37,451 nt of DNA from Bdellovibrio sp. ArHS (GTDB lineage Bacteria > Bdellovibrionota > Bdellovibrionia > Bdellovibrionales > Bdellovibrionaceae): contig NZ_JTEV01000002.1 in assembly GCF_000786105.1 (NCBI RefSeq), forward strand, positions 1 to 37,451. Reading direction: 5' to 3'. Positions 9,334 through 13,314 of the stretch are shown one piece after another; the first letter of the stretch is position 1, and every line of letters begins with the position of its first letter. Under the pieces are notes generated by a model. That model did no database searches and was not told the DNA's origin. It saw nothing but the letters and a program-made list of their open reading frames with translations. Position numbers and translations under genes: made by a program.

Positions 9334-10764
9334 ATGGCTCTCAGACAGACCATGAACCTGAGCCAGTCTCTGGTGATTACTCCGCAGCTGCAACAGGCCA
9401 TCAAGCTTTTGCAGATGTCGCGTATGGAGTTGGAGTCTGCGGTTCGTTCTGAGCTGGAAGAAAATCCTATTCTTGAAGAAGCAGAAACCCTCAAGGAAGA
9501 AGATCTTCAGCGCACGAAAGAAGCTGCAACTGAAGTGGAGCACTCCGAGTCTCCCGACCACAACGTCCAGGACCCGCAAAAACAAGATGAGTTCGAGTGG
9601 GAATCCTATATCGAAGCCAACCAAAAACCTCCTCAGTCAGGCATGGCGGGCTCTGAAGAAATCATGAACTATGAGAACGTCATCACGGCGTCTCAGACTT
9701 TGCATGATCATCTTTATTGGCAAGTAAAAATGAACGGCTTTTCCGAAGAAGAGGAACAGGCGGCGGATGCCTTGATCGGCGCAATCGACGACGAAGGTTA
9801 TATCAAAATTCCGTTGGAGCAGATTGCCGAAGAGGAAAAAATTGATTTGGGTCTGTTGGAAGATACTTTGACCCTGATCCACGAATTCGATCCTCCGGGC
9901 GTCGGCGCTCGTGATTTGAAAGAATGTCTGTTGATTCAGGCCAAACACCTGGAAGAAGACACCCATGATCTAGTCAGCCTGATTAACAATCACCTGAAGG
10001 ATCTTGAAAAGAAGAATTATGAAGCCATCGCGAAAGCTTTAAGTCGGGACGTCGAAGACGTTATCGAGATGTGTAAAATCATCTACGCGATGGATCCGAA
10101 GCCGGGTCGCGCTTTCGTCAGCAGCGATACACACTACGTGACCCCGGATGTGTACGTTTACAAAGTCGGCGACGACTATGTGGTGTCTTTGAATGAAGAC
10201 GGTTTGCCGCGTCTGAAAATTTCAAATTTCTATAAAAATATGCTTAAAGGTGGCAAGACCACTGGTGATAAAACTCAAGACTACATCCAGGATAAGCTGC
10301 GTTCCGCAGTATGGCTGATCAAGTCGATTCATCAAAGACAGCGGACGATTTACAAGGTGGCGGAATCCATTGTGAAGCATCAACGCGAGTTCTTTGAAAA
10401 AGGTTCCGAGTATTTAAAACCGATGGTTTTGCGCGATATCGCCAATGACATCGGCATGCATGAGTCGACAGTCAGTCGGGTGACGACGGCCAAGTACGTG
10501 CACACGCCCCAAGGTATTTACGAACTGAAATATTTCTTCAACTCCGGGATCAGTTCTTCGGACGGGGATGCTTTGGCATCCGAGTCGGTGAAGATCAAAA
10601 TCAAAGACCTGGTGGTGAAGGAAGACCCCAAGAACCCGCTTTCGGATCAGAAGATTGTGGATCTTTTGAAAGTGGAGGGGATTCAGATTGCTCGTCGTAC
10701 GGTGGCGAAGTACCGCGACATGCTTAAGATTCTTCCTTCTTCTCAGCGGAAGAAGTACTTCTAG
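9334..10764 (+). CDS. rpoN: RNA polymerase sigma-54 factor RpoN
   Basis: This 476-residue protein has all three parts of sigma-54. A Gln/Leu-rich region I (residues 1-50, 'SLVITPQLQQAIKLLQMSRM') contacts activators. An acidic region II spans about 50-125. Region III carries core binding, a helix-turn-helix ('MHESTVSRVTTAKYV') and the RpoN box ARRTVAKYR at residues 453-461, which reads the -24 element. AAGGAT precedes ATG 9334. A small hairpin CGCAC-CTTA-GTGCG (9302-9315) lies in the 41-base gap after lptB. The usual downstream neighbour hpf is displaced about 2 kb by a palindromic element and the apt/nucleosidase pair. Confidence 0.97.
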   Translation: MALRQTMNLSQSLVITPQLQQAIKLLQMSRMELESAVRSELEENPILEEAETLKEEDLQRTKEAATEVEHSESPDHNVQDPQKQDEFEWESYIEANQKPPQSGMAGSEEIMNYENVITASQTLHDHLYWQVKMNGFSEEEEQAADALIGAIDDEGYIKIPLEQIAEEEKIDLGLLEDTLTLIHEFDPPGVGARDLKECLLIQAKHLEEDTHDLVSLINNHLKDLEKKNYEAIAKALSRDVEDVIEMCKIIYAMDPKPGRAFVSSDTHYVTPDVYVYKVGDDYVVSLNEDGLPRLKISNFYKNMLKGGKTTGDKTQDYIQDKLRSAVWLIKSIHQRQRTIYKVAESIVKHQREFFEKGSEYLKPMVLRDIANDIGMHESTVSRVTTAKYVHTPQGIYELKYFFNSGISSSDGDALASESVKIKIKDLVVKEDPKNPLSDQKIVDLLKVEGIQIARRTVAKYRDMLKILPSSQRKKYF

Positions 10765-12174: not shown

Positions 12175-12210
12175 GGCTGAAGCTTCGTTAAATCGGGGCT
12201 TCAGCCTTTC
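12175..12210 (+). terminator. Rho-independent terminator after the nucleosidase gene
   Basis: GGCTGAAGC (12175-12183) pairs perfectly with GCTTCAGCC (12198-12206), with a 14-base loop and a short T-run after it. It lies 13 bases past the nucleosidase stop. The weak T-tract makes efficiency uncertain. Confidence 0.7.
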
Positions 12211-12275
12211 CATTTCTGCCCTTCCTCTCCGCGGTTAAAAAAAGCGAGCCGTCTCGACCTGAGACACGAATTTAC

Positions 12276-12302
12276 TCATCTTTGGTCGGGGTCTTCCGAT
12301 AA
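12276..12302 (+). promoter_or_regulatory. sigma-28 (FliA)-type promoter, copy 1
   Basis: TCATCTTT (12276-12283), 11 bases, then TCCGATAA (12295-12302) fits the FliA layout TAAAGTTT-N11-GCCGATAA; the -10 is 7/8. The 16-mer CTCATCTTTGGTCGGG (12275-12290) and its 5-base distance to CCGATAA recur exactly at 12822-12849. Transcription should begin near 12309, almost at the ATG (12310) of the next gene, implying a leaderless mRNA. Confidence 0.65.
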
Positions 12303-12309
12303 GTTCAGC

Positions 12310-12807
12310 ATGAGATTTCCGCATTCTTCCTTCGCACAATGGGGAGTTTTATCCCTGGTCGCTTTTGCCGGTTTAAGTTTAGGCTATATCGCCCATCCCT
12401 TTAAAAATAAAGTGCCAGAACAAGATCACCAAGAAGTCGCGCAATTCTATGCGAAAGCTCATCAGTATTTTGCCGCCGGCAATTTTGAGGGGGCCCTGGA
12501 AGCTTCGGAAAAAATTCGTCGGCCGATTCCTCCGCGCTATGCGGATATTGAACAGTTGCAAAGAAAAGCGCGGGGAGCGCTGGCTGAGTATCAAAAAAAG
12601 TTAAAAGACGGAAAACTAAATCCAACCCACGTGGATCGGCTGCCTGCCGCGCTTCGAGATTCTTATTTCGATGCGCGTATTGAGGCGGATCAGGGGCGTT
12701 GTCGGGCGGCTTATGATCATATGGCCCCGGTCAGTCGATATTTAAATAATAGAGAACACCTCGAAATTTTTAAGCACTGCCGATTAACCAAAAATAAATC
12801 CAAATGA
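12310..12807 (+). CDS. membrane-anchored helical (TPR-like) protein
   Basis: This 165-residue protein has one N-terminal hydrophobic helix (about residues 11-28, 'GVLSLVAFAGLSLGYIAH') and a helical periplasmic part containing a TPR-like pair ('VAQFYAKAHQYFAAGNFEGA'). Two Cys lie near the C-terminus. I do not recognise a specific family. No Shine-Dalgarno precedes ATG 12310, and a FliA-type promoter ends eight bases before it, so a leaderless transcript is likely. A second promoter of the same design follows before hpf. Function is unknown; the context suggests expression in motile cells. Confidence 0.75.
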   Translation: MRFPHSSFAQWGVLSLVAFAGLSLGYIAHPFKNKVPEQDHQEVAQFYAKAHQYFAAGNFEGALEASEKIRRPIPPRYADIEQLQRKARGALAEYQKKLKDGKLNPTHVDRLPAALRDSYFDARIEADQGRCRAAYDHMAPVSRYLNNREHLEIFKHCRLTKNKSK

Positions 12808-12822
12808 GTCTCAAAATAAGGC

Positions 12823-12849
12823 TCATCTTTGGTCGGGTAAGGCCGATAA
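12823..12849 (+). promoter_or_regulatory. sigma-28 (FliA)-type promoter, copy 2, before hpf
   Basis: TCATCTTT (12823-12830), 11 bases, then GCCGATAA (12842-12849), an exact match to the FliA -10 consensus. The 16-base block upstream is identical to copy 1 at 12275-12290. Expected start of transcription is near 12856, giving a leader of about 37 bases with AAGGAGAAG before the hpf ATG. Confidence 0.75.
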
Positions 12850-12892
12850 AGAACTAAGAGCTGAATAAGCAGCCAATAAGGAGAAGAAACCC

Positions 12893-13243
12893 ATGAAACT
12901 CAACTACACATTTAAGCACCTTGATCACTCCGACGCACTTGTGAATTATACCGAGGAACGTATGGAGGAAATCGGTCGCTTTTTGCTTAGAGAAGGCTAT
13001 GGCAATATTTATTTCTCTAAAACAAAAAATGAATTCTGTGTTGAAGTTTCCATAAATACCCGCGAAAAATATTTTAAAGCCTCCGCTTATGGTGCGGACG
13101 TTTACGGTGCGGTGGATGCCGCGGCTGAGAAACTGGAAAAACAATTCTTGAAAACCAGCAAGCAGTACAAGAATCACAAAAAGCCGGAGCTTTCTAAAGA
13201 AGGACGTTTGGATCAGGCCATTCGCTTTAAAAAAGCAGCTTGA
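12893..13243 (+). CDS. hpf: short ribosome hibernation promoting factor (HPF/RaiA family)
   Basis: The gene encodes 116 residues with the beta-alpha-beta-beta-beta-alpha pattern of the HPF/RaiA (S30AE) fold: 'MKLNYTFKHLDHSDALVNYT', 'EFCVEVSINTREKYFKASAY' and 'DVYGAVDAAAEKLEKQF'. It lacks the C-terminal dimerisation domain of long HPF, so it is the short form that binds the 30S decoding site in 70S/100S hibernation. A strong AAGGAG precedes ATG 12893. Linkage to rpoN is classical in Proteobacteria, although about 2 kb of other genes intervene here. The FliA-type promoter in front suggests activation in the motile stage. Confidence 0.92.
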   Translation: MKLNYTFKHLDHSDALVNYTEERMEEIGRFLLREGYGNIYFSKTKNEFCVEVSINTREKYFKASAYGADVYGAVDAAAEKLEKQFLKTSKQYKNHKKPELSKEGRLDQAIRFKKAA

Positions 13244-13282
13244 TATTTTTTAAGATATAAACGAAATTTTATGGAACAACAA

Positions 13283-13314
13283 ACAGGGTGGCGCAAAGGC
13301 CACCCTGTTTTTTT
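13283..13314 (+). terminator. strong Rho-independent terminator after hpf
   Basis: ACAGGGTGGC (13283-13292) pairs with GCCACCCTGT (13299-13308), a perfect 10-bp stem with a 6-base loop. It is followed by a run of seven T. It ends the hpf transcript. Confidence 0.93.

Follow-up and report, generated by a model that had tools for sequence, protein, structure and literature searches.

Two near-identical sites, here named P1 and P2, precede a small gene and hpf in the window, i.e., the whole 37,451-nt stretch of Bdellovibrio sp. ArHS DNA that was analyzed. We consider it quite likely that both are FliA promoters of one terminator-bounded unit, by which hpf would be switched on in the attack phase and the ribosomes silenced. 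The matter bears on how a predator keeps its ribosomes intact during a non-growing hunt and restarts them inside prey. If this reading is true, the order-wide flagellar-type promoter of hpf ties the ribosome switch to the attack-phase sigma factor in one step. The link between hpf and FliA is directly testable in B. bacteriovorus.

Twin sites and the genes behind them

The sequence CTCATCTTTGGTCGGG-N5-CCGATAA is present at 12275-12302 (P1) and at 12822-12849 (P2), on the same strand and 547 bp apart. The sequence-only reading had described a 16-base block, a 5-base gap, and CCGATAA occurring twice with equal spacing, and both 28-bp sites are as it described them. When up to three mismatches are allowed, the window contains two matches to the 28-bp site, and 100 shuffles contain none. 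The genome scan proposed by that reading, with the same tolerance, returned P1 and P2 as the sole matches in 3.54 Mb; there is no third copy in the 3,539,424-bp genome. A mobile repeat was rejected, as only two copies exist. Rfam gave no match at the P1/P2 site.

Both sites lie on the + strand. In P1, the -35-like element TCATCTTT (12276-12283) is followed by the box RGTCnnG (12285-12290) and by the -10 element TCCGATAA (12295-12302), which agrees with the -10 consensus GCCGATAA at 7/8 positions. In P2, TCATCTTT is found at 12823-12830, and the -10 element at 12842-12849 is GCCGATAA itself (8/8). The 11 nt expected between TAAAGTTT and GCCGATAA are present in both. The -35-like element matches TAAAGTTT at 5/8 positions in both sites and the published Bdellovibrio TTAAG at 2/5; compared with the whole published Bdellovibrio site, a site bearing TCATCTTT reaches 8/11. 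From the proposed FliA-type fit with N11, the spacing and the perfect -10 of P2 were confirmed, but the -35 agrees only in part. This departure from TAAAGTTT and TTAAG counts against the FliA reading. On the 16-base consensus, P2 scores 13/16, which is the joint best value in the window, and P1 scores 12/16.

The upstream regions of the flagellin genes contain loose FliA-like sites only; therefore, promoters were scored without an organism-specific weight matrix. Across the genome, the published consensus TTAAG-N16-CCGATAA is not enriched (388 matches vs 414 in the reversed control), and TCAAGTTT-N12-CCGATAA shows a weak excess (189 vs 125). FliA is encoded in the genome of Bdellovibrio sp. 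ArHS (TIGR02479, 281 bits; cut-off 189.6) and has a match in 58 of 60 relatives. The two genomes with no FliA match keep motif-like sites, which counts against the FliA reading, although both genomes are incomplete (83-86%). Because of this incompleteness, FliA loss failed as a test of the motif. A sigma-54 promoter was also considered and rejected, since GG-N10-GC is absent: after GG at 12831, 10 nt lead to CC, and many relatives have AGTC with no GG.

The order of the locus is rpoN (9334-10764), apt, a nucleosidase-like gene, a terminator, P1, a 165-aa gene, P2, hpf, and a terminator. Upstream of P1, the preceding unit is closed by an intrinsic-terminator-like hairpin (12175-12206, + strand) with a 13-pair stem and a T-rich tail. 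Another terminator-like hairpin (13281-13310, + strand; 12-pair stem and T run) is located 3' of hpf. The + strand showed no terminator in the interval from the small gene to hpf; hence, transcripts from P1 could extend through hpf.

The hpf product (12893-13243, + strand) is, by its profile matches, a ribosome hibernation-promoting factor of the HPF/YfiA family, with 57.3 bits for TIGR00741 (cut-off 40.9) and 55.2 for PF02482 (cut-off 23.7). Its PDB matches include chains of HPF and RaiA. With 116 aa, it is a short form, and the HPF and RaiA equivalog models are both far below their cut-offs. The small gene (12310-12807, + strand) encodes 165 aa, for which the predicted structure has an N-terminal hydrophobic helix followed by helical hairpins, i.e., a membrane-anchored TPR-like helical protein. 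The libraries searched contain no family to which it could be assigned, and comparison of the model with the PDB gave TPR-like neighbours only, none of them significant (best E 0.19). The earlier statement that the sites precede an anchored helical protein and HPF is therefore in line with both genes, and the interpretation of P1 and P2 as FliA-type sites in front of them is supported at the level of sequence.

Conservation of the hpf promoter and its spacer box

Of the Bdellovibrio genomes, 23 have an hpf match, and each of them carries CTCA(T/G)CTTTRGTC-N8-CCGATAA upstream of the gene. The information content at P2 is 1.90 bits per column for TCATCTTTRGTC and 1.89 for CCGATAAG, compared with 0.80 for the 8 bases between them and 0.30 downstream. 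As the rows for this calculation had been chosen by motif, we added a motif-free test with all 4096 hexamers in the 180 nt before hpf, using 26 genomes from other genera of the order. CCGATA ranks first there (17/26 genomes; opposite strand 0). In the control region, the 180 nt before metK, which lies downstream of hpf, CCGATA occurs in 0 of 27 loci. Given 23/23 genomes within the genus, 17/26 outside, and controls of 0, the FliA-type promoter of hpf is by these comparisons an old, order-wide feature. Some other genera have a near-canonical FliA -35 at hpf, e.g., TCGAGTTTT. Hence, the less usual TCATCTTT seems to be a variant of the FliA promoter local to Bdellovibrio.

GGTCGGG in the spacer of both sites had been suspected to be an extra binding site. 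An additional element at this position is supported, but its conserved form is RGTCnnG, and GGTCGGG is particular to this genome. RGTCnnG is accordingly described here as a putative extra binding element. The pattern CTCATCTTTNGTC-N8-CCGATAAG (≤ 2 mismatches) has hits in 35 of 60 genomes, in most of them one or two, and the reversed control gave 0.

With looser patterns, three further genes show the box. In almost every Bdellovibrio genome, the RGTCnnG extension accompanies the gene of a conserved protein of 130 aa (CTTAACTTTGGTCnnGTCCTGCCGAAGAG). This protein is conserved in 59/60 genomes of the order and has no Pfam match. The gene of a secreted 70-75 aa protein has the box as TAAAGCTTTNGTC, and a PapD-like chaperone gene is located downstream where the flank was read. 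At a FlaG-like gene, whose FlaG match is weak and below the Pfam cut-off, the box is combined with the canonical TTTAAGTTT, and its final G is missing in 2/3 cases. Here, TTTAAGTTTAGTC-N8-CCGATAAG has the same register as the hpf site, so that one register is common to P1, P2, and the FlaG-like gene. Because the -35 of the FlaG-like gene is canonical, the register of the box is tied to a standard FliA -35.

Some observations on these genes may be added. In the present genome, the gene of the 130-aa protein is located at C19:138749-139138 on the minus strand, and its promoter has the box AACTTTGGTCnnG and a CCGA -10. The protein appeared PilZ-like by eye, which is an impression; its structure model (pLDDT 40.6) is unusable. 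In 8 species, the FliA-type promoter of the secreted 70-75 aa protein gene places the start codon 7 nt after CCGANAA, which looks leaderless. The promoter of merRNA, an abundant attack-phase RNA, reads TTGAAAATAAAACTTTGGTCGAGCTATCCT and has a CTTTGGTCnnG box inside a sigma-70-like layout. This box is present in most Bdellovibrio species tested.

Start of the small gene and control of the unit

The small gene is present at the corresponding place in 13 species. In all 13, CCGATAA is kept and the ATG follows 7-8 nt after it, with differing intervening bases and no Shine-Dalgarno sequence. Box and CCGATAA together are kept in 12/13; the remaining species has lost the -35 box and retained CCGATAA and the 7-nt gap. 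By contrast, the gap between CCGATAA and hpf ranges from 26 to 159 nt. A 7-nt gap to ATG or GTG also occurs at the secreted 70-75 aa protein gene (8/8 species) and at the FlaG-like gene (3/3).

The genome of one relative is presumably that of B. bacteriovorus HD100. For calibration, start positions from Table 2 of PMC3627812 were read in this genome. For the three FliA-labelled RNAs, the distance from the -10 heptamer to the start is 7 nt in two cases and 11 nt in the third. The reported start of merRNA is at least 13 nt after a -10-like hexamer and was left out of the calibration. With a distance of 7 nt, transcription would start on the A of the small-gene ATG. Together with the position of the ATG in all 13 species and the lack of a ribosome-binding site, this predicts a leaderless mRNA for the small gene. 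Applied to P2, the same 7-nt rule gives a predicted hpf leader of 12857-12892 (+ strand) with the Shine-Dalgarno sequence AAGGAG at 12878-12883.

FliA is already known as a regulator of the attack phase. TTAAG-N16-CCGATA was reported in 92/140 attack-phase promoters, about two thirds of those mapped (PMC3627812), and FliA drives the promoters of two operons in a reporter assay, while fliA could not be deleted (PMC5430801). The association of FliA-type motifs with attack-phase genes in Bdellovibrio, named in the sequence-only reading, was thus correct. P1 and P2 share the CCGATA -10, a similar spacing, the genus, and the sigma factor gene with these promoters, but they have TCATCTTT instead of TTAAG and, in addition, the conserved RGTCnnG (PMC3627812). 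In the text consulted, supplementary tables apart, neither report names hpf as a target. Among the papers searched on Bdellovibrio and FliA, as judged by their titles, abstracts, and selected passages, none describes FliA control of hpf or FliA transcripts that lack a leader, and neither the order-wide link to hpf nor the leaderless gene set came up there; the supplement of PMC3627812 may list hpf.

As FliA-type promoters precede hpf and FliA acts at attack-phase promoters, the most economical view is that FliA would drive hpf during the attack phase. P2 would give an hpf mRNA with a normal leader and a ribosome-binding site. From P1, transcription would begin on or beside the ATG of the anchored helical protein, and the mRNA could read on into hpf. 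With FliA active in the motile, non-replicating attack phase, hpf would be turned on together with flagellar and attack genes. HPF made while swimming would then inactivate and preserve the ribosomes. This points to a joint onset of swimming and ribosome shut-down. In Legionella in water, a short HPF homologue is likewise induced in a non-growing stage, and fliA is also up (PMC4549902). In the passages considered, that report describes no FliA promoter for hpf, whereas here a flagellar-type promoter is located directly before hpf.

A second signal may be added to FliA. Directly 5' of P1 is the palindrome GTCTCGACCTGAGAC (12251-12265, no strand assigned; one mismatch to GTCTCANNNTGAGAC), a candidate regulator site, and a degenerate palindrome, GTCTCAAAATAAGGC (12808-12822, no strand assigned; two mismatches), abuts P2. 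GTCTCA at the latter place is conserved in most of the genus. The window overall has no excess of GTCTCANNNTGAGAC-like matches. Outside the genus, GTCTCANNNTGAGAC is found before hpf with 11-12 of 12 matches in 8/26 genomes, well above chance. GTCTCANNNTGAGAC is possibly an activator site, where a dimeric regulator, perhaps with a factor reading RGTCnnG, would act and supply much of the promoter activity; we hold this version only tentatively, and it is less a rival of the main explanation than an addition to it. Besides the palindromes, the weak -35 of P1 and P2 and the conservation of RGTCnnG where sigma-28 promoters have no consensus argue for it. There is a precedent in E. coli, as the sigma-28 promoter of aer is activated by CRP centred at -49.5 (PMC2859248). 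The aer and trg promoters resemble the present sites in the sigma-28-type core and a palindrome around -50; however, the palindrome here differs, and regulator and activation are putative. Against an activator, the palindrome is placed at variable distances from the -10 (about 35-126 nt), and its helical phasing is not significant (p about 0.05-0.12 over three periods tried). Moreover, the second half-site is degraded at P2, and the palindrome could instead be a short RNA hairpin. The atypical -35 could also mean that P1 and P2 are recognized by a different attack-phase sigma factor, e.g., the sigma-70-like protein encoded by the 372-aa sigma-like gene that adjoins the FliA gene, and the box in the sigma-70-like merRNA promoter would agree with this. 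We regard such a reading as quite improbable, because the -10 of P2 is an exact FliA -10 at the right spacing, near-canonical FliA -35 elements occur at hpf in other genera, and the register is common to the FlaG-like gene.

The identity of the first 16 bases in this genome, and the presence of small gene and P1 in a part of the genus only, could also mean that a single promoter was recently duplicated (or copied by gene conversion) and that P1 has little function. This is hardly credible, as P1 keeps box and CCGATAA in 12 species in which the small proteins have diverged to about 32-60% identity. In these species, P1 and P2 differ from each other at the variable positions, which argues that both are under selection and that their exact identity here is partly coincidence. 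Start positions do vary, as the HD100 RNA with a distance of 11 nt indicates, so that the small gene might have a start further upstream or a later start codon. A start other than the leaderless one is nevertheless unlikely: a larger distance would remove the ATG instead of creating a leader, P1 and the terminator at 12175-12206 are directly upstream, and later start codons fall within the membrane helix. In addition, the spacing is held at 7-8 nt across 13 species, and two unrelated gene families show it as well.

FliA control of hpf with a leaderless small gene, the reading preferred here, could be part of a wider scheme. In the whole order, FliA and the putative GTCTCANNNTGAGAC regulator would hard-wire hibernation to the motile stage, and leaderless FliA genes (small anchored, secreted 70-75 aa, and FlaG-like proteins) would remain open to translation by intact 70S ribosomes when ordinary initiation is shut down by HPF. 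This scheme is speculative, and we consider it fairly improbable in its entirety. The predicted leaderless FliA transcripts bear on whether attack-phase translation uses a route left open by hibernation.

Further features of the locus

In many Bdellovibrio species, the hpf leader has a conserved AAGGCCTTGAAAGGGGC hairpin directly before the Shine-Dalgarno sequence, and others have a GGCUG...CAGCC hairpin. The folding of the leader hairpin was no better than that of shuffles for the window sequence, nor in most species.

TTAACC and GTCTCA are further blocks conserved in the genus 5' of P2 (12768-12821). They overlap the end of the small gene here and are intergenic in species without this gene.

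In the present genome, rpoN and hpf are separated by apt, the nucleosidase-like gene, and the small gene. One or several of these three genes are missing from some relatives, which suggests a stepwise insertion into an rpoN-hpf pair.
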